Below, piece by piece: positions 8,144 through 20,725 of a DNA stretch of 20,725 nt. Source of the DNA: a virus; IMG/VR virus record IMGVR_UViG_3300021375_000207, positions 1 through 20,725 of that record; one strand, 5' to 3'. The notes below the pieces were generated by a model, which saw nothing but the letters and a program-made list of their open reading frames with translations, was not told where the DNA came from and did no database searches. Position numbers and translations under genes: made by a program. How positions within the stretch are numbered: position 1 is the stretch's first letter; every line of letters begins with the position of its first letter.

Positions 8144-8853
8144 TATTATTAGTAGATGCAGATTCATTGATATTTGCAAGTTGTTACAGAAAAAGAGAAA
8201 ACAAAGACGACTATCCTTATTATACTGATTTAGACGATGCGATTGCAAAGTTTGATGAACAGTTTATGAAGATAGTTAACGACCTTGAAGAAAAATACAA
8301 TATTGAAAAGGTTATAACATTTAGCGGTTCAAAGGGAAACTTTAGAAAACTAATAACGCCAAAGTACAAAGCCAACAGAAAAAAACAAGAACTCCCTCCT
8401 TTACTTGATGAGATGCACTCATACGTAAAAGAACAATACGAATCTATTTGGGGAATGGGAATTGAAACTGACGACCTTGTGGCTAGGTACTGGTATAACC
8501 TTAGTAAAGAACTAGGCAGGGATAACGTAATGATTGTATCAATAGACAAAGACTATAAACAATTCCCTTGCCTTATGTACAATTATCATTATAAGCATCA
8601 AACTATATTAGACATTACAGAGGATGAAGCCCTTTATAATTTCTATGAGCAAATGATTGTAGGAGATACCGCTGATAATGTAAACTACTTCAAAGGAAAA
8701 GGAAAACGGTTTGCTGAAAATTACTTTGAGGGTTGCACAACAAAATACCAATACACTAAAAAGCTATACCAATTATTTAAACAAGAGTACAAACAAAAGG
8801 CACGGCAAAAATATGCTGAGTGCTATCACTTATTAAAACTACGGACAGAATGA
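8140..8853 (+). CDS. FEN-type 5'-3' exonuclease (T7 gp6/T4 RNase H-like)
   Basis: The 237-residue protein carries the acidic motifs of the FEN/5'-nuclease superfamily in order: D6 and D8 (LLVDADSL), FRK...YKANR (68-80) for phosphate contacts, E109-x-D111-D112 (GIETDDLVA), D136 and D138 (VSIDKDYKQ), and GDTADNVNYFKG (175-186) leading to the helix-hairpin-helix-like GKGKRFAENYF. It would remove RNA primers or trim 5' ends during phage replication and recombination. Polymerase is not encoded beside it in this window. The stop overlaps the Mom-like gene start (ATGA). Confidence 0.85.
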   Translation: MILLVDADSLIFASCYRKRENKDDYPYYTDLDDAIAKFDEQFMKIVNDLEEKYNIEKVITFSGSKGNFRKLITPKYKANRKKQELPPLLDEMHSYVKEQYESIWGMGIETDDLVARYWYNLSKELGRDNVMIVSIDKDYKQFPCLMYNYHYKHQTILDITEDEALYNFYEQMIVGDTADNVNYFKGKGKRFAENYFEGCTTKYQYTKKLYQLFKQEYKQKARQKYAECYHLLKLRTE

Positions 8854-9569
8854 AAAAACAATACATATATTCAGAGCAATCGAGTTTGTGGGGAGATTCA
8901 GAATGTTTAGGGTTTGGAACAGATGATTTTTATGTAAAAGAAATAAATAGAAATTTAGCAATAGATATAATTACTAAAAACCATTATAGTAAAAGTTATG
9001 TTCAAAATTCATATATTCATTTGGGTGTTTTTGTAAATGGTGATTTAAAAGGATGTTTACAGTTTGGATATGCTATGAGGGTTAATAGTTGCTCAACATT
9101 AGTTACAGGAACTACAAATAAAGAGTATTTAGAATTGAATAGAATGTGGATAGATGATAATGCGGGGAAATATCCCGAAAGTAGGTCAATAGGTTATTCT
9201 ATTAAGTATATTAAACGTAAATACCCAAGAATAAAATGGATACAAAGTTTTGCTGATGAGAGATGCGGGGGGTTTGGAATTGTTTACCAAGCGGCTTCTT
9301 TTAGTTACTATGGCGAACATATAAGCCCTTTTTGGGAACTTGACGGAAAAACATACCAAAATCAAGCAATGACAAACAAAGGTAATGGATTAAGACCAGT
9401 ATCAAAAGAAGAAAAATTTTTACAAGAAAACAAGAGCAGAGCAAAAAAACACGAATTAAGACAATTTAGATATATTAAGTTTTTAGACCAAAGAGAAAAA
9501 AAGAAATGTACCCTTAAAGAGCAACCTTATCCAAAACATTATAAAGAAAACGTAGAACGAAACAAATAA
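8850..9569 (+). CDS. Mom-like DNA modification protein
   Basis: The start at 8850 (ATGA overlap with the exonuclease stop) is preferred to the in-frame GTG at 8820; the product is 239 residues. It resembles phage Mu Mom, a GNAT-fold enzyme that converts DNA adenine to a carbamoylmethyl form and so blocks restriction. Readable segments are TKNHYSKSYVQNSYIHLGVF (42-61), KGCLQFGYAM, YLELNRMWIDD (93-103), KWIQSFADERCGGFGIVYQA (129-148) and SPFWELDGKTYQNQ. The Asn-His-Tyr-Ser and SFAD stretches are family hallmarks. The Lys/Arg-rich C-terminal third (from ~190) probably binds DNA. Two DNA methyltransferases lie just downstream. Confidence 0.78.
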   Translation: MKKQYIYSEQSSLWGDSECLGFGTDDFYVKEINRNLAIDIITKNHYSKSYVQNSYIHLGVFVNGDLKGCLQFGYAMRVNSCSTLVTGTTNKEYLELNRMWIDDNAGKYPESRSIGYSIKYIKRKYPRIKWIQSFADERCGGFGIVYQAASFSYYGEHISPFWELDGKTYQNQAMTNKGNGLRPVSKEEKFLQENKSRAKKHELRQFRYIKFLDQREKKKCTLKEQPYPKHYKENVERNK

Positions 9570-9576
9570 TATAAAA

Positions 9577-10116
9577 ATGAACGAAATAGAAATTGCAAAA
9601 AAGATTGAAGAACTTACAGGAATTAACGTGTTTAAAAACACACGCAAAAGAGAATATGTAGAGATGCGCTCCTTGTATTGTTATATATTAAGAAAGAAAT
9701 ACAGAAAGACATTTGAATCAATAAGCGATATAATGCAAAAGAACGGTAAGAAGTCTGACCATTCGACCATTGTACACGCAGTTACTATGTATAAACAATA
9801 TGAAAAAAACAACAAAGACCTACAAATAATAAACGACCTTTTTTCAGTAAAGGGAATGCCAAAGATAGATGTATCAAACGCAATACATCAAATATCAATT
9901 ATAGAAGAACTAAGGGGCGAAGTAAAAACATTAAAATACAAACTAAAACAATATAAAGACAACGTAAAGCCACTTCATAAACTAATTGATAGTATTCCTA
10001 TAGAAAGACAAGAAGAAGCCTATAAGCGCATTGATTTAATGATTAAGGGGTGGACTTGGAAGTACGAAGACAAGTGCGAAGTAATAAGTGGATATAACTC
10101 AATAGAAGCATACTGA
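9577..10116 (+). CDS. DnaA domain IV-like DNA-binding protein
   Basis: The 179-residue protein has, in residues 1-90, the layout of the DnaA C-terminal DNA-binding domain: a helix (MNEIEIAKKIEELTGI), TRKREYVEMRSLYCYILRKK (basic helix), SISDIM, and the signature KSDHSTIVHAV (59-69), matching the DnaA R-DHSTV-HA motif. No AAA+ ATPase domain precedes it. The second half is a helical, coiled-coil-like region (IEELRGEVKTLKYKLKQYKD). It may bind a phage origin or a DnaA-box-like site, or regulate host initiation; this is inference. It ends exactly where the first methyltransferase begins (shared A). Confidence 0.75.
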   Translation: MNEIEIAKKIEELTGINVFKNTRKREYVEMRSLYCYILRKKYRKTFESISDIMQKNGKKSDHSTIVHAVTMYKQYEKNNKDLQIINDLFSVKGMPKIDVSNAIHQISIIEELRGEVKTLKYKLKQYKDNVKPLHKLIDSIPIERQEEAYKRIDLMIKGWTWKYEDKCEVISGYNSIEAY

Positions 10117-10760
10117 TGAAAATAACCAACGAGGATAATATGGATTTAATGTCAAGGTACGAGGATAACCATTTTGACTTGGCTATTGTTGACCCGCCGT
10201 ATGGGATTAATGCTGATAAAAAAAGAGGTGATACAGGTAAAAATTCTCACATAAAACAAAAAGATTATCATTTTGGTAATTGGGATAATGAAATACCTAA
10301 AAAAGAATACTTTGATGAACTTAAAAGGGTTAGTAAGCATCAAATAATATGGGGAGGAAATTATTTTTTAGATTATTTAAAAGCAACATCTTGTTTTGTT
10401 GTTTGGGATAAAAAAAATGGCGATAACCTTTATGCCGATTGCGAATTGGCTTGGTGTAGTTTTAAAACTGCTGTAAGAAAATTTGAATGGCGTTGGCACG
10501 GATTTTTGCAACAAAATATGAAAGATAAACAAGAAAGAATACACCCAACGGAAAAACCAATACAATTATACGAATGGTTACTAATGCACTACGCAAAAGA
10601 GGGCGATAAGATTTTAGACACCCATTTAGGAAGCGGAAGCATAGCCATTGCGTGTCATAATTTAGGCTTTGACCTTACCGCCTGTGAACTTGATAAAGAA
10701 TACTACGATGCAGCAATGAAAAGAATAAACGAACACAAACAACAAATAAGACTGTTTTAA
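10116..10760 (+). CDS. DNA methyltransferase, beta-class N6A/N4C type (copy 1)
   Basis: The 214-residue protein has motif IV DPPYG (26-30) near the N-terminus, HPTEKP (143-148), and the SAM-binding motif I LDTHLGSGS (167-175) near the C-terminus; this order defines beta-class amino-methyltransferases such as CcrM/HinfI relatives. The target-recognition region is expected between about 85 and 140 (including WDKKNGDNLYADCELAW and KFEWRWHGFLQQN). A paralogue lies at 11435 with near-identical ends and a different middle. No restriction endonuclease partner is adjacent, so this looks like a phage solitary methyltransferase protecting DNA, beside Mom. Confidence 0.9.
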   Translation: MKITNEDNMDLMSRYEDNHFDLAIVDPPYGINADKKRGDTGKNSHIKQKDYHFGNWDNEIPKKEYFDELKRVSKHQIIWGGNYFLDYLKATSCFVVWDKKNGDNLYADCELAWCSFKTAVRKFEWRWHGFLQQNMKDKQERIHPTEKPIQLYEWLLMHYAKEGDKILDTHLGSGSIAIACHNLGFDLTACELDKEYYDAAMKRINEHKQQIRLF

Positions 10761-11252: not shown

Positions 11253-11438
11253 ATGAAAGATAGAGCGATAAATAAAATAAAAGCAAAAATAACACAAAAG
11301 GAGTTAGACTTAAAGCAATCCTTAAAAGACAAAAAAAACAAAATAGGATTCTTAAACGAAGAACAGCACGATTCTTTAATAAGACATAATCATAAAGAAA
11401 TAAAAATATATAAATACATTTTAAACAAGATACAATGA
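11253..11438 (+). CDS. Small basic helical protein, 61 aa
   Basis: The 61-residue Lys-rich helical protein (AINKIKAKITQKELDLKQSL, EEQHDSLIRHNHKEIK) shows no motif I recognise. Its TGA overlaps the start of the second methyltransferase (ATGA), so the two are translationally coupled. The first residues resemble the remnant ORF at 11104. The function is unknown; DNA binding is possible from its charge. Confidence 0.6.
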   Translation: MKDRAINKIKAKITQKELDLKQSLKDKKNKIGFLNEEQHDSLIRHNHKEIKIYKYILNKIQ

Positions 11439-12043
11439 ATATAACAAACGAGGACAATATGGAACTTATGGCGAGGTATGAAGATAACTACTTTGACCTT
11501 GCTATTGTTGACCCCCCTTATGGGATTGATGCGGGTAAAATGACAATGGGTAGCGGAAAGCACGAATTTGTTAAGGGTAAGGATTGGGATAGCGAAGTAC
11601 CCGATGACGAGTATTTTAAAGAATTATTTAGGGTAAGCAAGGAACAGATAATATGGGGCGGTAATTATTTTAAACTGCCCTTGAATAATAATTGGATAAT
11701 ATGGGATAAAAGAAACCCAAACTTAAGTTTTTCAGAAGCCGAGTTAGCTTGGTGTAGTATAAATAAAAACGTTAGAATATTTCAAAGACTATCAACGCTG
11801 CCCGATTATGACGGTAAAAAAAAACATCCAACACAGAAGTCTATAAAGCTATACGAATGGTTACTTATGAAATACGCCAAAGAAGGCGATAAGATACTTG
11901 ACACTCACTTAGGTAGTGGCTCAATAGCAATAGCCTGTCACAATTTAGGATTTGAACTTACAGCTTGTGAGTTAGACAAAGACTACTACGATGCAGCTAT
12001 GAAGCGAATAGAACAACATAAATCACAAATAAGACTATTTTAA
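11435..12043 (+). CDS. DNA methyltransferase, beta-class N6A/N4C type (copy 2)
   Basis: The 202-residue paralogue of the enzyme at 10116 has the same motif order: DPPYG (26-30), HPTQKS (131-136, with Ser where the family usually has Pro) and LDTHLGSGS (155-163). The first 30 residues differ from copy 1 at four positions, and the last 63 at six. The middle (about 31-135) is largely different, apart from QIIWGGNYF and ELAWCS, so a different recognition site is likely. It is probably also a solitary protective methyltransferase. The many synonymous differences argue against a recent duplication. Confidence 0.88.
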   Translation: MNITNEDNMELMARYEDNYFDLAIVDPPYGIDAGKMTMGSGKHEFVKGKDWDSEVPDDEYFKELFRVSKEQIIWGGNYFKLPLNNNWIIWDKRNPNLSFSEAELAWCSINKNVRIFQRLSTLPDYDGKKKHPTQKSIKLYEWLLMKYAKEGDKILDTHLGSGSIAIACHNLGFELTACELDKDYYDAAMKRIEQHKSQIRLF

Positions 12044-12237: not shown

Positions 12238-12504
12238 ATGGATAAACGTAAAAATAACGGTGGCGCAAGAGATGGTGCAGGACGACCTAAAAAAGCTGAT
12301 GAATCTAAATTGATTGAGAAACTGGACAACTTAATTGATAGCGATGAGGTTATTAAAATGCTAGGTAAGAAAATAAAAGATGGCGACCAACGTGCTATGA
12401 CTTTGTATTTCAATTATAGGTACGGTAAGCCAAAAGAATCGGTTGACATAAATTCAAGCGAGGGTTTAAATATAAACTTCAAGGACTTGATTAAGTTCAA
12501 ATGA
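12238..12504 (+). CDS. Terminase small subunit (putative)
   Basis: The 88-residue protein lies directly before, and overlaps by four bases, the large terminase gene. It starts with the basic motif RKNNGGARDGAGRPKKA common at the N-terminus of phage small terminase-like DNA-binding proteins, then a helical body (ESKLIEKLDNLIDSDEV, GDQRAMTLYFNYRYGKPKE) resembling small-terminase oligomerisation segments. It is shorter than typical (140-180 residues). It would recognise the packaging site and load the large subunit. The assignment rests on the motif and synteny. Confidence 0.75.
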   Translation: MDKRKNNGGARDGAGRPKKADESKLIEKLDNLIDSDEVIKMLGKKIKDGDQRAMTLYFNYRYGKPKESVDINSSEGLNINFKDLIKFK

Positions 12505-13709
12505 TAGAGATACACAAAAAGTATTCTCCAATTACTGAATCCGATAGCCGTTATTTTATTGTTACTGGTGGACGTGGTTCTGGGAAATCTTTTACTTTAA
12601 CCTTATTACTTGTTTTGCTTACATACGAAGCAGGGCACGTTATATTGTTTACACGCTATACACTTACCTCCGCATATGTTTCTATTATACCAGAATTTAT
12701 AGAGAAGTTAGAATTGCTTAATATCTTTGGGCATTTTCATATTACTAAAGATGAAATTGTAAATAAGCGCACAGGAAGCAAGATAATCTTTAAAGGTATC
12801 AAAACCTCCAGTGGCGACCAAACAGCCAATCTAAAGTCCTTACAAGGCGTTACAACGTTTGTATTGGATGAAGCGGAAGAACTAACAAACGAAGATACAT
12901 TTGATAAGATAGATTTGTCTGTTCGTAATATGCTTAAACAAAACAGGGTTATTCTTATATTAAACCCAACTACAAAAGAGCATTGGATATACAATAGATT
13001 CTTTGAATCAAAAGGAATACAAGAGGGAAGCAATACAACTAAAGACAATGTTACTTACATACATACAACCTATGAAGATAATATTGAAAACCTATCCGAA
13101 AGTTTCTTACAACAAATAGAAACGATTAAAGAGCGCAGACCGAACAAGTATCAACATCAAATACTAGGTGGCTGGTTAAATAAAGCAGAGGGCGTTATCT
13201 TTAGTAATTGGAAGATAGGCGAGTTCAAAGAAGTAGGCGTTTCAGTTTACGGTCAAGATTATGGATTCAGTTCAGACCCTACAACACTTGTACAAACCAA
13301 TATAGACGTTTCAAACAAGATTATTTATTTAAAGGAATGCTTTTACTTACCCAGCCTTACAACAAGCGAAATAGCGCAATTAAATTTAAAACACGCAAAG
13401 TCAAATTTAATCATTGGCGATTCAGCAGAACCAAGATTGATAAACGAACTTAAAGGAAAAGGCTGCAACCTTACAGCAGCTATAAAAGGACAAGGAAGCA
13501 TAACGTATGGGATTAGCTTACTACAAGATTATGATTTAATAGTAAGCGAGGATAGTATAAACCTTATTAAAGAATTAAATAATTATAGTTGGTTAGAAAA
13601 AAAGTCAAACACTCCTGTGGATAAATTCAATCATATTATTGATGCGATTAGATACGCAATAACATACCAACTACAAAACCCCAATAGAGGACGTTACGCA
13701 ATACGATGA
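12501..13709 (+). CDS. terL: Terminase large subunit (PBSX/Terminase_3 type)
   Basis: The 402-residue protein has the full two-domain packaging motor. The ATPase has Walker A GGRGSGKS (23-30), Walker B FVLDEAEEL with catalytic Glu (120-128) and the coupling segment LILNPTT (152-158). The RNase H-like nuclease has acidic residues D253 (GQDYGFS), D307 (IIGDSAEP) and D381 (HIIDAIRYA). The length is normal for the PBSX XtmB-like group. It cuts and translocates phage DNA into the head. The portal gene expected next is absent; a 50-residue ORF follows by ATGA overlap. Confidence 0.95.
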   Translation: MIEIHKKYSPITESDSRYFIVTGGRGSGKSFTLTLLLVLLTYEAGHVILFTRYTLTSAYVSIIPEFIEKLELLNIFGHFHITKDEIVNKRTGSKIIFKGIKTSSGDQTANLKSLQGVTTFVLDEAEELTNEDTFDKIDLSVRNMLKQNRVILILNPTTKEHWIYNRFFESKGIQEGSNTTKDNVTYIHTTYEDNIENLSESFLQQIETIKERRPNKYQHQILGGWLNKAEGVIFSNWKIGEFKEVGVSVYGQDYGFSSDPTTLVQTNIDVSNKIIYLKECFYLPSLTTSEIAQLNLKHAKSNLIIGDSAEPRLINELKGKGCNLTAAIKGQGSITYGISLLQDYDLIVSEDSINLIKELNNYSWLEKKSNTPVDKFNHIIDAIRYAITYQLQNPNRGRYAIR

Positions 13710-14294: not shown

Positions 14295-14329
14295 GGTTTT
14301 TTTCATTATAGTTAATTGTTAGTTGAAAG

Positions 14330-14358
14330 AGGTAGTCGTAATTGGCTACCTTTTTTTT
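14330..14358 (+). terminator. Intrinsic terminator before the tail operon
   Basis: AGGTAGTC (14330-14337) pairs with GGCTACCT (14344-14351), with one G-U pair, around the loop GTAATT, then a run of seven more T. It ends the two-gene unit at 13936-14294. It also shows that the in-frame TTG at 14323 is not the tail chaperone start. Confidence 0.85.
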
Positions 14359-14377: not shown

Positions 14378-14395
14378 AATTACGTTATATAAGTA
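14378..14395 (+). repeat. 18-base repeat AATTACGTTATATAAGTA, copy 2 (candidate late-gene element)
   Basis: It is identical to 12193-12210. Here it sits between a strong terminator and the first tail gene, where a promoter is needed. It ends on the first base of the ATG at 14395, so if its TATATAAG acts as a -10, the mRNA would be leaderless or nearly so; an activator or operator site is the alternative. Confidence 0.6.
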
Positions 14396-15045
14396 TGAAG
14401 ATTGAAGTTATCATACCAAACGATTTGAGCGAAATTACTTTAGACCAGTACCAACGCTTTTTAAAGATTCAAGAGAACAATACAGATGAGAAATTTTTAA
14501 CTTCCAAAATGATTGAAATATTTTGCGGTATTAAATTACCCGAAGTATTAAAAATGAGGGTTAATGATGTTTCATTAATTACTAACATCCTATCTGAAAT
14601 GTTTGAGAATATACCTCAACTTGTTCAAAGGTTTAAAATGAACGGTGTTGAATATGGTTTCATTCCTGATTTAGATGATATGAGTTTGGGAGAATATATC
14701 GACCTTGATACCTATCTAGGCGACTGGGAGAATATGCACAGGGCTATGGCAGTTTTATATAGACCTATTAAAAACAAAAGCGGAAACAGATACAACATAA
14801 AAGAATATGACGGCAAAGGTTTTGAGGATATGAAAGATATGCCTTTAGATGCCGTTTTAAGTTCCATTGTTTTTTTTTACAATTTAGGGATAGAATTGTC
14901 GAAAGCTATGATGAACTATTTGGAAACAACGGAGGAGGAAGCCTTGACAGAGTTTCTCAATTCTCAACCAAATGGGGTTGGTATCAATCAATTTACGCAC
15001 TCGCTATCGGAGATATTACAAGATTTGAAAATATCACTAAACTAG
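14395..15045 (+). CDS. Tail assembly chaperone, zero-frame product (gpG-like)
   Basis: The start at ATG 14395 (MKIEVIIPNDLSEITLDQYQ) is chosen because the upstream in-frame TTG lies before the terminator. The 216-residue protein has the helical body I recall from the corresponding gene in flavobacterial phages (YGFIPDLDDMSLGEYIDLDT, GDWENMHRAMAVLYRPI, DMPLDAVLSSIVFFYNLG) and ends NGVGINQFTHSLSEIL...ISLN. Its location at the head of the tail genes and the second overlapping frame suggest the tail assembly chaperone that coats the tape measure protein during tail building. Direct sequence proof of that function is lacking. Confidence 0.7.
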   Translation: MKIEVIIPNDLSEITLDQYQRFLKIQENNTDEKFLTSKMIEIFCGIKLPEVLKMRVNDVSLITNILSEMFENIPQLVQRFKMNGVEYGFIPDLDDMSLGEYIDLDTYLGDWENMHRAMAVLYRPIKNKSGNRYNIKEYDGKGFEDMKDMPLDAVLSSIVFFYNLGIELSKAMMNYLETTEEEALTEFLNSQPNGVGINQFTHSLSEILQDLKISLN

Positions 15046-15131
15046 GGGTGCATAATTGTTTTATGATGTTATCATTTATGAAAGAAAAAAACGAAATAGA
15101 ATCAAAAGAAATTAAAAACAAGTTCAAATGA
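14395..15131 (+). CDS. Tail assembly chaperone, -1 frameshift product (gpGT-like, 245 aa if slip is at 14871-14877)
   Basis: Zero-frame residues 1-161 (14395-14877) would be joined to 84 residues read in the -1 frame from 14877 to 15128, stop at 15129-15131. The -1 part contains FGNNGGGSLDRVSQFSTKWG, WYQSIYALAIGDITRFENIT and LGVHNCFMMLSFMKEKNEIE, clearly protein-like. Its frame has no ATG, GTG or TTG from its opening (14826) to the GTG after 15034, so separate initiation for the WGWY region is unlikely. Its stop forms an ATGA overlap with the next gene at 15128, as real genes do throughout this window. Confidence 0.6.
14871..14877 (+). promoter_or_regulatory. Candidate -1 ribosomal slippery heptamer T TTT TTT
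   Basis: A nine-T run (14870-14878) in zero-frame context GTT TTT TTT TAC provides an ideal X XXX XXX slip site. It lies 47 bases after the last stop in the -1 frame (14823-14825), so the -1 frame is open from there to 15128. No downstream pseudoknot was identified by eye. Confidence 0.45.
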
Positions 15132-15598
15132 GCCAACAAGGAGTAAGGGGTTTTTACCAAGTTACGCAAAAGATAAAAGACCAACTGTTGTTAGATGAAA
15201 ATGTTACTACGGTTACTACTGGAGATATTACTGATGTAGATTTATCAAAGCAAACTATATTTCCATTGTCGCATTTAATTATAAACAACGCAACTCAGGA
15301 AGACGGTGTATGGCGTTTTAATATGTCAATACTTGCAATGGATATTGTGGATGTATCTAAAGAACCAACGACCGATATATTTATAGGAAACAACAACGAA
15401 CAAGATATACTTAACACACAATTAGCGGTATTAAATAAACTATTCCAAGTATTAAGAGGCGGTACATTACATTTTGATTTATACCAAATAGACGGCAATC
15501 CAAGTTGTGAACCTTTTTATGATAGGTTTGAAAATCAAGTCGCAGGTTGGGCTGCTTCTTTTGATGTGTTAATTGCAAACGATTTACTTATTTGCTAA
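15128..15598 (+). CDS. Tail terminator/completion-like protein
   Basis: The 156-residue soluble alpha/beta protein follows the -1 frame stop by ATGA overlap. Features include VRGFYQVTQKIKDQLLLDEN, TIFPLSHLIINNATQEDG, MSILAMDIVDVSKE, and an end DRFENQVAGWAASFDVLI with a final Cys. This order resembles the small alpha/beta proteins that cap phage tails (terminator or completion type), and the next gene is a gp10-like neck/tail protein. The assignment is by context and general fold only; I recall it as a conserved but unnamed protein of flavobacterial phages. Confidence 0.6.
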   Translation: MSQQGVRGFYQVTQKIKDQLLLDENVTTVTTGDITDVDLSKQTIFPLSHLIINNATQEDGVWRFNMSILAMDIVDVSKEPTTDIFIGNNNEQDILNTQLAVLNKLFQVLRGGTLHFDLYQIDGNPSCEPFYDRFENQVAGWAASFDVLIANDLLIC

Positions 15599-16101
15599 TG
15601 ACTTTAAAGGAAACAAATAAAGCCCTTAATAACTTTGCTAAATACGTTATACAACAATCAAGAACGAATTTAACAAAAGGAAAAAAGAATGTTACTAGCG
15701 ACCTATACGGTTCTTTAGGATATGACCTTAAAACGCATCCTAACAGCTTTTCTTTAGAGTTTTATATGTTAGACTATGGCGAGTTCCAAGACAAGGGAGT
15801 AAGTGGAACTAAACGCAAATATAATACTATATACGAATACACAAATAAAAGACCTCCTGCGGAAGTATTCAGCAAGTGGGCTAAAGCAAAAGGAATAAGA
15901 TTAAGAGATGAAAAAGGTAGATTTAAAAAAGGCAGTTACAAAACACTTGGTTTCATTTTAGCAAATAGCGTATTTGAGAAAGGTATAAAGCCTAGCTTAT
16001 TTTTTACCAAACCTTTTGAGAAAGCATTTGATAGATTGCCCGATGAACTTATAGAAAGATTTGCCCTTGACCTAGACCAATTTTTAGATACAACAACATA
16101 A
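15598..16101 (+). CDS. HK97-gp10-like neck/tail completion protein
   Basis: The ATG at 15598 shares its A with the upstream TAA (TAATG) and is preferred to the in-frame TTG at 15592; 167 residues. The gp10-like layout: an N-terminal helix (LKETNKALNNFAKYVIQQSR), LYGSLGYDL with a beta region (SFSLEFYMLDYGEFQDKG), a Lys-rich loop (RLRDEKGRFKKGS), a hydrophobic helix (LGFILANSVFEKGIKPSLFF), and a final helix after FTKPFEKAFDRLPDEL. YGEFQDKGVSGT and the F-T-K-P-F segment are typical of the family. It would act at head-tail joining or tail completion. Confidence 0.72.
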   Translation: MTLKETNKALNNFAKYVIQQSRTNLTKGKKNVTSDLYGSLGYDLKTHPNSFSLEFYMLDYGEFQDKGVSGTKRKYNTIYEYTNKRPPAEVFSKWAKAKGIRLRDEKGRFKKGSYKTLGFILANSVFEKGIKPSLFFTKPFEKAFDRLPDELIERFALDLDQFLDTTT

Positions 16102-17243
16102 TGACAAAACTAAACGCAAGAAGCCCTTATTATATAAAAGTAGATGACGTAAATTTAAGTTATGCTACTTTGCAACTATACGTATATACAGGAGTATTCA
16201 CAACTGACAAACCAGTTACGGCACAGTACACGATAACTAAAAGCGAGATTGCATCAAATAACTTTGTAATATTTGAAATTGCTGAGCTTGTAAGAGATTA
16301 TTTAGATATATCTTTTAATCAAGAATTTACAGAAGATTTATACAAAGCAAGAGTACTCGCTGACGGCGGTACTTTTGAGGGTTCTAGTTGTTTAAGCGCA
16401 ATATTAGATACTTTAGATGATGACTTTAGAAGTCAAACAGTTTGGGTTGAGGCTGATATAACTTTATACAATTCTTCTGATGCAAGTATTGGAACAAGTA
16501 ATACTGATTATTTAGCCTTTGACGGTTATGCTTATTTCACAGACGGAACAAATGCTGAACTTAGTAGAACGCTTTTACAATCCAATACCGATATATATGT
16601 AGAGAATGGAGAAAGGGTACAAGTTCCAGTTTATACCGATGAGGTTACTTCTGTTCAATTTTATAACGGTGGCGTATTACATACAACCGAAACAATTACA
16701 AGCTCCACAAACTCGAATGCACAAATAAAATATGCAGGAAGTTCTTTAGCTACTGATGAAATTAGAGTAATATCAAGTGCAGGAACAGAAACAATAAATG
16801 TTTATCAAATTGATGAATGTAGATACACGCCTTATAGGGTTACTTTTGTAAACAAGTTTGGAGCATTACAAAATTTATATTTCTTTAAAAAGTCAATAGA
16901 AAATATAAACACTACAACAGAAAACTACAAAGCCAATACGTTTAATCAAAATACTTTAGATTACGACATACAAAGCCACCAGTATAAACAGTTTCAAAAA
17001 GCAGGTAGGGAAAGTATTACAATGAATACAGGATATGTTTCAGAAGAATACAACGAGGTTATGAAACAACTCCTTTTGAGTGAGCAAGTATGGATGACAA
17101 AAACAATAGATACAAGACCTACTATTTTGCCTGTAAACGTTAAAACTCAATCACTACAATACAAAACAAGTGTAAACGATAAGCTGATTAATTACACTAT
17201 TGACTTTGACTATGCGTTTGACAAAATAAACAATATTAGATAA
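16101..17243 (+). CDS. Tail structural protein, 380 aa
   Basis: Coupled to the gp10-like gene by TAATG overlap, and followed without a gap by the next ATG. The 380 residues are beta-rich and Thr/Ser/Asp-rich. The N-terminal half has repeated strand-type segments (LSYATLQLYVYTGVF, NNFVIFEIAELVRDYLD). The C-terminal ~140 residues are more conserved in my memory of flavobacterial phages: DECRYTPYRVTFVNKFGALQ, NLYFFKKSIENINTTTENYK, and the end IDFDYAFDKINNIR. No enzymatic motif. Probably a tail tube or tail-tip associated structural protein; which of these cannot be read from sequence. Confidence 0.75.
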   Translation: MTKLNARSPYYIKVDDVNLSYATLQLYVYTGVFTTDKPVTAQYTITKSEIASNNFVIFEIAELVRDYLDISFNQEFTEDLYKARVLADGGTFEGSSCLSAILDTLDDDFRSQTVWVEADITLYNSSDASIGTSNTDYLAFDGYAYFTDGTNAELSRTLLQSNTDIYVENGERVQVPVYTDEVTSVQFYNGGVLHTTETITSSTNSNAQIKYAGSSLATDEIRVISSAGTETINVYQIDECRYTPYRVTFVNKFGALQNLYFFKKSIENINTTTENYKANTFNQNTLDYDIQSHQYKQFQKAGRESITMNTGYVSEEYNEVMKQLLLSEQVWMTKTIDTRPTILPVNVKTQSLQYKTSVNDKLINYTIDFDYAFDKINNIR

Positions 17244-19328
17244 ATGCAGGAAATCCAATTATACATACAAGGGGAACAAGTAGAACTGTTCAAAGATGAA
17301 TCGGTAAGCATCACTCAATCAATACAAAATGTAAAAGATATTGCAAAAGTGTTTACAGAATTTACAAAGTCTTTTACCGTTCCTGCTTCAAAAAAAAATA
17401 ATAGGATTTTTAAACATTATTATAATTATGATATTGTAGGAGGTTTTGATGCAAGACAAAAAGTAGCTTCAACAATAGAACTTAATTACTTACCTTTCAA
17501 AAATGGGTTTATAAAATTAGAGGGGGTAGATTTAAAAAACAACAGCCCTTATGCGTATAGACTTACTTTCTTTGGTGCAACCGTAAACCTTAAAGACTTA
17601 TTAGGAGAAGATAAACTTGATGCATTAAGTTGGTTGGATAATTTTGTGGTTGATTATAGCCTTGTAGATATAAAGGCATATTTTCAAAGTGGTGCTGATA
17701 TTACGGTAGATTCAACAACATATACAGACGCTATTTTAGCACCTTTAATTTCACACACTAAAAGACTTTATTACGATTCAGCCATTACAACTGCTGAAAG
17801 TGGTAATTTACATTATTCTAGTTCCGAAACAACGCAGGGGGTTTATTGGAAGGATTTAAAATATAGTATTAGAGTACATTTAATTGTTTTAGCTATTCAA
17901 GAGGCTTATCCCGAAATACAATTTAGTACTGATTTTTTTAATACTAGCAATTCAGCTTATTACGATTTGTATATGTGGATGCATCGTAAAAAGGGAGATG
18001 TACAGGCGTCGGCTACTGGAGTACAAACATACACGCAAATAGTAGATAGCTTCCCTACAAATAGTATATTGACTGATGCGGGGGGTTCAATTTTAAACGG
18101 AACTACACTTGTAATACCTACATATCAATCGGGTGGTTGTTGGGCGATAAATTCAACAAGTTATTTTATAACCACAACTTCAACAAATTCTTATAATGCA
18201 ATATTTAAAAGAAACGGAGCAATAATAGGAGAACTTATTAACGTAACAGGAAACCAATCTTTTAGCTTACCCCAAGATTCATACGGTAAAACGTTAAACG
18301 GAAATTATACCGTTACTTTAGAATCTTCTGTATCAATTACGTTTAATTATGTAAGGATAAATTTTTTAATAAATGACGATTGCGATATTCCTCCTCAAAC
18401 ATATAACACTTCAAGTACAAGTTCAAGTGTTACAATTAACGAGGTATTTCAGTTTTATCCTACACAGCAGTTACCCGAAATGAAAATCATTGATTTTCTA
18501 ACAGGACTATTCAAGACGTTTAATTTAACCGCATACGAACAAGACGGAATAATAAAAGTAGAAACTTTAGACAGTTATTATTCAAGTTTTGATACCTATG
18601 ATATTAGTGAATTTGTAGATGTAAATACAAGTGCGGTAAATGTAGGGTTACCGTATAAAGAAATAAGTTTTGTAAATAAAGGTACTGATAGTTTTTTTGC
18701 TTCAGTATTCAATCAATTAAATAACAGAGAGTACGGACAGTTAGACTATAAAGGAGAAGAAAGTTTAAACTGGGAGGGTTCAATATACAAAGTAGAACTT
18801 CCTTTTGAGCATTTGTTATACGAGAGATTATATGACGGAGATACTTCAACCTTAACTTCTGTACAATGGGGTTGGATGGCTGACGACAATCAAGAATCAT
18901 ATATTGGTGCACCTTTGATTCATTATGTAGATAGACAATCATTTGTACCCTCTCCTAGTTCAACTCTTATAAGTTTTAGGGATACCGAAACAACAAGAAT
19001 CGGTTTATACAATTATTATATTCCTTTAAATTCAAATAACACTTCGGGTACAGGACAATCTTTAAATTTCTTTGCGGAGATTGACTCCTATTCTTTAACA
19101 GTAAACAACCAAACTTTGTTCGCTAATTATTATGTGAATTATATAAAAGATGTTTTTAACATCAAAAGAAGATTAACAAAATTAAAAGCCTTTTTGCCTT
19201 TAAGAATATTATTAAATTTTAAATTGTCAGATAGGTTTGATATTAACGGACAAAGATATAAAATTAACTCAATCACTACTAACTTAAAAACAGGGGAAAG
19301 TGATATAGAATTATTGAACGAAGTATGA
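17244..19328 (+). CDS. Large tail/baseplate structural protein, 694 aa
   Basis: The ATG directly follows the previous stop. The 694-residue protein has an N-terminal ~120-residue region (ELFKDESVSITQSIQNVKDI, VFTEFTKSFTVPASKKNNRI, FKHYYNYDIVGGFDARQKVA, LTFFGATVNLKDLLGEDKLD) that I recognise as a conserved block in flavobacterial phage tail proteins. A Ser/Thr-rich beta region (~250-400) follows, then MKIIDFLTGLFKTFNLTAYE, a hub-like segment. The last ~130 residues include YINYIKDVFNIKRRLT-type helical and FDINGQRYKINSIT beta segments. Position before the tape measure gene supports a tail-tip or baseplate role. Confidence 0.75.
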   Translation: MQEIQLYIQGEQVELFKDESVSITQSIQNVKDIAKVFTEFTKSFTVPASKKNNRIFKHYYNYDIVGGFDARQKVASTIELNYLPFKNGFIKLEGVDLKNNSPYAYRLTFFGATVNLKDLLGEDKLDALSWLDNFVVDYSLVDIKAYFQSGADITVDSTTYTDAILAPLISHTKRLYYDSAITTAESGNLHYSSSETTQGVYWKDLKYSIRVHLIVLAIQEAYPEIQFSTDFFNTSNSAYYDLYMWMHRKKGDVQASATGVQTYTQIVDSFPTNSILTDAGGSILNGTTLVIPTYQSGGCWAINSTSYFITTTSTNSYNAIFKRNGAIIGELINVTGNQSFSLPQDSYGKTLNGNYTVTLESSVSITFNYVRINFLINDDCDIPPQTYNTSSTSSSVTINEVFQFYPTQQLPEMKIIDFLTGLFKTFNLTAYEQDGIIKVETLDSYYSSFDTYDISEFVDVNTSAVNVGLPYKEISFVNKGTDSFFASVFNQLNNREYGQLDYKGEESLNWEGSIYKVELPFEHLLYERLYDGDTSTLTSVQWGWMADDNQESYIGAPLIHYVDRQSFVPSPSSTLISFRDTETTRIGLYNYYIPLNSNNTSGTGQSLNFFAEIDSYSLTVNNQTLFANYYVNYIKDVFNIKRRLTKLKAFLPLRILLNFKLSDRFDINGQRYKINSITTNLKTGESDIELLNEV

Positions 19329-19471
19329 TGCAAAATATTTTAGAAATGCTAAAGATAGCAAACGGAGAAACGGAAAACATTCGTATTGCGCAGGGCAAAT
19401 ATAAGTTACCCGAAACATTAAAGGAAACATACAATCAAATCAAAACAGAGATAAAATGGCAAAAAAAATAA
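19325..19471 (+). CDS. Small conserved-position protein before the tape measure, 48 aa
   Basis: ATGA overlap with the structural gene stop (a second ATG at 19328 is the alternative start). The 48 residues (MLKIANGETENIRIAQGKYK, LPETLKETYNQIKTEIKWQKK) are helical and charged. It overlaps the tape measure gene by 16 bases, showing tight coupling. I do not recognise the family; the function is unknown. Confidence 0.6.
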   Translation: MMQNILEMLKIANGETENIRIAQGKYKLPETLKETYNQIKTEIKWQKK

Positions 19472-20725
19472 CAATAGACTTAGAAGCCAAAACGGATAAG
19501 GCAATAGGCGAAATTGAATCTTTAAAGGAACAGATTGTAGAACTTAATAAAAAAGTTGCAGAGGGAAACGACAATACTAAAAAAGGTTTAAGCGGTGTTG
19601 AGAAAGCGACAAAAGGTGCATTAGGCGGTGTTAAAAAAATAGGTAATGGGTTAAAGGCATTAACAAGTGGGGTTGGTGTTATATTTCTCTTGACTAAAGC
19701 ATTTGAGGTTTTTAAAGAGATAGGAATGAAAAATCAAAAGGTTGTAGACGCCCTTGACATTGCTATGGAATCTTTAAGTATTGTGTTTAATCAATTTTTT
19801 ACATACCTATCAAATAATATAGGCACTTTTACTGGGTTTTTTAAAGATTTATTTGAAAATCCACAAGTTAAAATAAAAGAACTCGGAAAAACAATATATG
19901 ACGGTGTAGTTGTAAGACTTGAGCAACTGCAAGAGTCTTTAAGTTTAGCTGGAAAAGCATTGTTTAAATTAGTAAAAGGAGATATAAGAGGAGCATTTGA
20001 CACAATAAAAGAAGCAGGAAAAGAAGTTGTTGATGTTGTTACAGGGGTTGACGGCAGCTTTGAGCAAGTTTCAGAAACCATTACTGATTATACCAAAAAG
20101 GTTGTTACTTCAGCAAAAGAAAATGTTAAACTTGCAAAACAAGCTGAACTTGCAGCGGTTAAAAATCAAGGTATAATTGAGCAGTTTGATAAACAAGCGG
20201 AACAATTAAGACAAATAAGAGATGACGAAAGTAAAAGTTTTGCTGAAAGGATAAAAGCAAACGAAGATTTGGCAAAGGTTCTTGATGAGCAAGAAATCCA
20301 AATGAAAGCTAATGCTGATTTAATGGTTGCTAGGGCAGCAACAGAACTTTCTAAAAACAAAGATAATATTGAACTTCAAAAAGAATATCAAGAAGCCCTT
20401 AATGAACAAGCAGGAATTGAAGCACAAATAACTGGTTTTAGAAGTGAGCAACAAACCAACACAAATTCCTTATTAAGAGAACAAAAAGACATACAAAACG
20501 AACTAGCTTTAATAGGTAAGTCTGAAAGAGAAATTGAACGGTTAGAGTTACAACAAGATTATGATGCTAAAAAGGCATTAATTGAAAAAGAAGTAACTGA
20601 CGAAATTAAAAGAAAAGAAACATTAAAAAATCTTGAGGCAGAATACAACGCTCAAATATCCAGTATAGACCAAGCGGCACTTGATGAAAAAATAGATAAA
20701 GCAAATCAAGAACACGAATTGGAAA
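19456..20725 (+). CDS. Tape measure protein (3' truncated by window end)
   Basis: The ATG lies inside the 48-residue gene. The frame is open to the last base, with 423 codons visible. Composition and layout fit a tail tape measure protein, which sets tail length and is ejected with the DNA. The N-terminus is a charged helix (AIGEIESLKEQIVELNKKVA), followed by a Gly-rich hydrophobic segment (~53-90, including GLKALTSGVGVIFLLTKAF). Long Lys/Glu/Gln-rich coiled-coil helices run from about residue 205 to the end (IIEQFDKQAEQLRQIRDDES, ELALIGKSEREIERLELQQD). A full-length phage tape measure is usually much longer, so most of the C-terminal part lies beyond the window. Confidence 0.85.
   Translation, partial: MAKKITIDLEAKTDKAIGEIESLKEQIVELNKKVAEGNDNTKKGLSGVEKATKGALGGVKKIGNGLKALTSGVGVIFLLTKAFEVFKEIGMKNQKVVDALDIAMESLSIVFNQFFTYLSNNIGTFTGFFKDLFENPQVKIKELGKTIYDGVVVRLEQLQESLSLAGKALFKLVKGDIRGAFDTIKEAGKEVVDVVTGVDGSFEQVSETITDYTKKVVTSAKENVKLAKQAELAAVKNQGIIEQFDKQAEQLRQIRDDESKSFAERIKANEDLAKVLDEQEIQMKANADLMVARAATELSKNKDNIELQKEYQEALNEQAGIEAQITGFRSEQQTNTNSLLREQKDIQNELALIGKSEREIERLELQQDYDAKKALIEKEVTDEIKRKETLKNLEAEYNAQISSIDQAALDEKIDKANQEHELE

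Follow-up and report, generated by a model that had tools for sequence, protein, structure and literature searches.

A conserved T9-10 run predicted to direct −1 recoding of a tail-region gene in a large group of Flavobacteriia phages

Results

A −1 extension behind a T9 run

Our analysis of a 20,725-base virus record (here called the window, that is, the whole stretch of DNA examined), which originates from a marine Flavobacteria phage, and of its homologues confirmed a conserved −1 recoding event with dual coding in a gene of the tail region, by which, as judged from sequence comparison, one gene is predicted to yield two proteins. The best explanation of the whole, which we somewhat favor, is that RNA polymerase slips on a run of nine or ten T residues and thereby makes a pair of tail proteins resembling G and GT of phage lambda. 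To the broader proposal of a G/GT-type family of tail genes, with a product ratio set by RNA polymerase slippage on T9-10 throughout a large set of phages and prophages of Flavobacteriia, we give an even chance.

The zero-frame gene (positions 14395 to 15045; this and all other features of the slip gene and its neighborhood lie on the plus strand) encodes 216 amino acids (aa), matches phrog_32199, of unknown function, and would constitute the G-like short product. The last −1 stop codon is located at 14823-14825, and the −1 frame is open from 14826 to a TGA at 15129-15131, exactly at the coordinates given in the original prediction, which had proposed a programmed −1 frameshift in a tail assembly chaperone gene. 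Near the beginning of this open stretch, as also predicted, lies a T9 run (14870 to 14878) that includes T TTT TTT (14871 to 14877) in the X_XXY_YYZ register of a −1 ribosomal slip, a heptamer implied by any T9. Beyond the slip, which lies 55 codons before the zero-frame stop, the −1 extension (14877 to 15131) comprises 84 residues and the TGA and carries a conserved WGWY..SIYALA.GDI motif; the GT-like long product would be a fusion of 161 + 84 = 245 aa, as opposed to 216 aa for the short one. The stretch read in both frames (14877 to 15045) measures 169 nucleotides (nt), close to the previous estimate of about 170 bases. The −1 stop overlaps the start codon of the next gene (ATGA, 15128 to 15131), and the first −1 start codon after the run is a late GTG at 15048, both as predicted, followed by an ATG at 15063.

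The upstream neighbor encodes the terminase large subunit (TerL; 12501 to 13709; Pfam Terminase_3, 8.6e-33) and is separated from the slip gene by a 79-codon open reading frame (ORF). Downstream follow genes for a 156-aa protein (15128 to 15598; phrog_30964), tail-terminator-like by appearance; a 169-aa protein (15592 to 16101; phrog_29822), HK97 gp10-like by appearance; a 380-aa protein (16101 to 17243; phrog_35281) of unknown function; a 694-aa protein (17244 to 19328; phrog_38559) that looks like a baseplate hub; and a tape-measure-like protein (19456 to 20724; phrog_21537, 9.5e-15) that runs off the end of the record. A terminator-like hairpin with a T8 tail (14325 to 14356) is located about 40 bases upstream of the slip gene, and in some relatives hairpins of other sequence with T8-T9 occupy the same place; the tail module may therefore be transcribed from its own promoter.

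Elsewhere, the window encodes a Mom-family protein (8820-9569; Pfam PF25680, 4e-66), which probably performs a Mu-like DNA modification shielding the phage from restriction. Two N6/N4 DNA methyltransferase genes (10116-10760 and 11435-12043), mutually 64% identical and with two small ORFs between them, likely represent a tandem duplication.

Conservation of the run and of the −1 frame

Homologues were collected from scans of IMG/VR (queried with the zero-frame protein, its homologue from phage P12024S, the −1 domain alone and divergent members), a Winogradskyella MAG contig and Flavobacteriaceae genomes. More than 280 homologous loci of the zero-frame gene were found, and 286 loci had a readable slip site; many of these repeat one contig, and clustering of the site region at 85% identity yielded 102 clusters. 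Locus L320, which ends before the site, and locus L321 were left out.

The T run was unbroken and exactly 9 or 10 residues long in all 286 loci (102 clusters). The zero-frame identity of the homologues to the window goes down to about 30%. Beyond the run, the −1 frame was open for 82-94 codons wherever the contig reached (178 distinct sequences), while the +1 frame was closed within 4-5 codons (145 distinct sequences); the zero-frame tail after the run varied from 15 to 83 codons in relatives. When synonymous codons were redrawn with the zero-frame protein kept, an open −1 frame persisted in 0.7% of the window's trials and in 0-10% of those for each of 11 relatives. Given this homology, a chance origin of the open −1 frame and the run is untenable, because the homologues keep both. 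An ATTTAGG downstream of the run, considered as a special nucleotide signal, is explained by dual coding (Leu-Gly versus Phe-Arg) and drifts in three loci (L194, L209 and L210).

T runs are prone to sequencing error, and a homopolymer error or a decayed gene could mimic recoding. However, the identical run is found in a cultured phage genome, in a 3.9-Mb chromosome and in hundreds of independent contigs, and the zero frame past the run is likewise open and conserved. The artefact reading is thus already refuted, and we assign it practically no weight.

The change of coding frame was further examined by phase diversity in a set of 46 relatives sharing less than 90% identity. Upstream of the run, diversity at zero-frame codon positions 1, 2 and 3 was 0.32/0.22/0.54, whereas in the overlap it was 0.21/0.26/0.28, and in the tail read only in −1 the values for −1 positions 1, 2 and 3 were 0.27, 0.20 and 0.46. 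From the run onward, the wobble position thus lies in the −1 frame and no longer in the zero frame. Diversity in the overlap was as low at −1 positions 1 and 2 (0.28 and 0.21) as in the −1-only region, so the −1 frame bears most of the constraint there and the dual-read stretch evolves mainly as −1 frame. In structure models, the last 40 or so residues of the zero-frame product were poorly structured (mean pLDDT, 43-50), and the −1 extension formed an all-helical domain (mean pLDDT, 78). Collectively, these alignments demonstrate, at the level of sequence, that both frames are conserved, as are the T run and its minimum length, and the predicted programmed recoding is borne out by the run and open −1 frame kept in homologues and by the wobble shift.

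Could the −1 frame instead constitute a small gene of its own, translated from an internal start or through termination-reinitiation? In phages P12024S and P12024L and two relatives, the −1 frame has an ATG just before WGWY; in P12024S this ATG, at codon 28, overlaps the zero-frame stop (TAATG) and is annotated as the start of gene 39. Nevertheless, P12024S retains both T9 and the conserved peptide preceding the ATG. Among 168 distinct sequences, 159 lacked an ATG between the run and WGWY, 143 lacked any ATG, GTG or TTG there, and none had an ATG in the open −1 stretch before the run; moreover, the −1 peptide is conserved directly from the run (FFLSFR.RL). We consequently rejected the separate gene as highly improbable. 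Stops or loss of the −1 frame ahead of WGWY, or an ATG-started separate gene, had been named as observations that would contradict recoding, and neither was encountered among the window's relatives; an own ATG just before WGWY is confined to the P12024S/P12024L lineage (4/168 sequences), which retains T9 as well as the upstream −1 frame. The annotated gene 39 of P12024S (L083:14528-14695), a separate 55-aa gene, corresponds to the C-terminal portion of this extension, and the P12024S record probably misses the fusion product.

RNA polymerase or ribosome as the slipping machine

Our inferences about the machinery that slips, the ratio of the products and their role in the tail are as follows. 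Two proteins with common first 161 residues would be made, one of 216 residues in the zero frame and one of 245 residues with the −1 C-terminus. The run has about the length of the RNA-DNA hybrid, which is 9-10 bp (PMC5009743), and RNA polymerase would slip on it, a fraction of the transcripts gaining one U. From a U10 made on T9, ordinary translation would enter the −1 frame, while transcripts losing one U would lead to a stop 4-5 codons further. The short and long products would then act as a chaperone pair at a fixed ratio, like gpG and gpGT of lambda.

On the evidence of the sequences, RNA polymerase slippage is the better fit and appears fairly likely, whereas ribosomal −1 slippage is possible but less probable. 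In the latter case, P- and A-site tRNA-Phe would re-pair on U UUU UUU to give the same two products with the same G/GT logic, and because both slips yield the same protein, the sequences bear only indirectly on the machine. T TTT TTT is present in phase in every sequence; all tail-chaperone frameshifts described in the literature consulted, a point against polymerase slippage, are of the ribosomal type, and low efficiency suffices for many of them (PMC5009743), with 6-7% frameshifting measured for two such genes (PMC3711429). However, the heptamer is not independent evidence because any T9 contains it in phase, and a ribosomal slip does not account for the lower limit of nine T's; none of the homologues had T7 or T8. 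Furthermore, U_UUU_UUU is far less shift-prone in E. coli than A_AAA_AAG (PMC5009743).

The evidence in favor of polymerase slippage includes the floor of nine T's in any register, the avoidance of T≥9 in host and phage genes, and the lack of RNA structure. As for the first, the residues flanking the run vary (VFFY, IFFLW, FFFWN, GFFLN and LFFWH), and nine or more consecutive T's are kept across four codon registers (102 clusters). In loci L367 and L368 the site reads GGT TTT TTT TTG, while their relative L369 has GTT TTT TTT TGG; the run is displaced by one base and both flanks are altered, but the length of nine is retained. The original emphasis on T TTT TTT as a ribosomal slip site was therefore probably misplaced, as the conserved unit is at least nine T's in any register.

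As for the second, we compared run counts in the ORFs of two Flavobacteriaceae genomes (G227 and G015), neither of which is a known host of the window phage, with synonymous shuffles. Runs of T≥9 were depleted in all phases (5 versus 21.4 expected in G227; 3 versus 19.4 in G015), whereas in-phase T7 was not avoided (90 versus 69.5 and 57 versus 56.3, respectively) and T8 hardly so (39 versus 49 and 43 versus 42). This tolerance of the in-phase heptamer counts against ribosomal slippage, for which a costly and hence avoided heptamer would be a supporting, though not strictly a defining, trait. The coding sequences of both genomes thus show a sharp break, with T8 about as frequent as expected and T≥9 underrepresented 4-6 fold. 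Among the remaining phage ORFs examined, T≥9 occurred 0 times versus 7.6 expected. Nine is also the length from which many bacteria avoid A/T runs, on account of transcriptional slippage (PMC1088944).

As for the third, the prediction had proposed folding the sequence downstream of the run in search of a stimulatory structure. Such a structure is common, but not obligatory, for −1 ribosomal frameshifting. None was found downstream of the run, either in 30 relatives (mean z, +0.1 to +0.2) or in the window (z, +1.24), and a search upstream of the run likewise detected none. Several considerations count against polymerase slippage: hydrophobic residues alone could maintain the flanking T's, the avoidance of long runs by hosts is possibly due to replication slippage, and the compensated change of register is clear in one lineage only.

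The slip gene opens a tail module

A chromosomal prophage (L325) has the same order of TerL, slip gene, 156-aa, 169-aa, 380-aa and 694-aa genes and tape measure, and the portal of P12024S is located elsewhere; the slip gene therefore opens a tail module. The prophage gene at the position of the tape-measure-like gene of the window matches tape-measure PHROGs (phrog_2854, 2.7e-7). This prophage, which lies in a 3.9-Mb Flavobacteriaceae chromosome (L325:8180-17398), encodes an XkdF-like head protease after the tape measure, along with a capsid-like protein, and thus displays an unusual tail-before-head arrangement.

The gene pair probably works like G/GT. It has the lambda-type trait of a zero-frame gene with a −1 extension that lacks its own start, conserved across homologues, and its short and long products with a common N-terminus would resemble gpG and gpGT (PMC5009743); the predicted identity as a lambda-type chaperone was not established. 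Neither in the window nor in L325 does the slip gene occupy the lambda-type position, after the major tail protein and directly upstream of the tape measure; it follows TerL, and four genes separate it from the tape measure. Searches of PDB by sequence and fold returned nothing usable, and sequence and fold searches yielded no convincing match to known tail-assembly-chaperone families. Flavobacterium phage 6H was rejected as an anchor, its fold match being too weak (TM about 0.3), and tblastn of the −1 domain against named phages gave no match because P12024S is too divergent. The position of the gene right after TerL and four genes ahead of the tape measure, together with the want of a convincing chaperone match, would suit a real recoding whose products serve another step near the terminase, such as head-tail joining or tube or baseplate assembly. 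We deem this unlikely, as genes of tailed phages that give two products by frameshifting typically encode tail chaperones, the slip gene heads a tail module, and the weak matches point to the tail: phrog_166 'tail protein' in 26/55 members (best, 3.7e-4) and a single BFVD model named 'Tail assembly chaperone' (E 0.019), ranked behind 37 strong phage matches without functional names.

Discussion

If RNA polymerase slippage sets the product ratio, the G/GT logic of lambda would have been reached by another machine, as with dnaX of Thermus versus that of E. coli. The ratio would then be governed by the polymerase of the host and not by the ribosome, and the gene would represent a conserved natural reporter of slippage in Flavobacteriia. 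In any case, the annotation of a large group of uncultured phages misses a conserved domain of 84 residues, which the P12024S annotation cuts into a wrong small gene. Within the open literature, we found no two-product tail gene ascribed to transcriptional slippage and no description of tail-gene recoding in Flavobacterium phages.

In phage lambda, the shift occurs near the 3′ end of gene G, on a G GGA AAG-type heptamer. The present gene differs in that the slip site is T9-10, lies 55 codons before the zero-frame stop and leaves the short product with its own C-terminal tail (15-83 codons in relatives), and in that the gene stands behind TerL and does not adjoin the tape measure. Like gpG/gpGT of lambda and the corresponding genes of HK97, P2 and others, it is a tail-region gene predicted to give two products with a common N-terminus, the −1 extension having no start of its own (PMC5009743). 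With Thermus dnaX (A9), Shigella mxiE, spa13 and spa33 and insertion sequence elements with A9/T9, it shares an unbroken A/T run of at least nine residues in a coding region with two products, and with such transcriptional-slippage genes it also shares the avoidance of these runs elsewhere by the hosts (PMC1088944, PMC5009743). Unlike them, it belongs to a phage tail module and has an alternative C-terminus of 84 residues that is both conserved and dual-coded, and slippage here is predicted. Another close system is that of the Nonlabens phages P12024S and P12024L (Inhavirus), which have a homologous gene 38, T9, the −1 extension and the same neighbors, but a zero-frame tail of 24 codons after the slip and the extra −1 ATG annotated as the start of gene 39. 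Tail genes that yield two products by a −1 shift are well known, whereas this instance, its slip run and its gene position are new.
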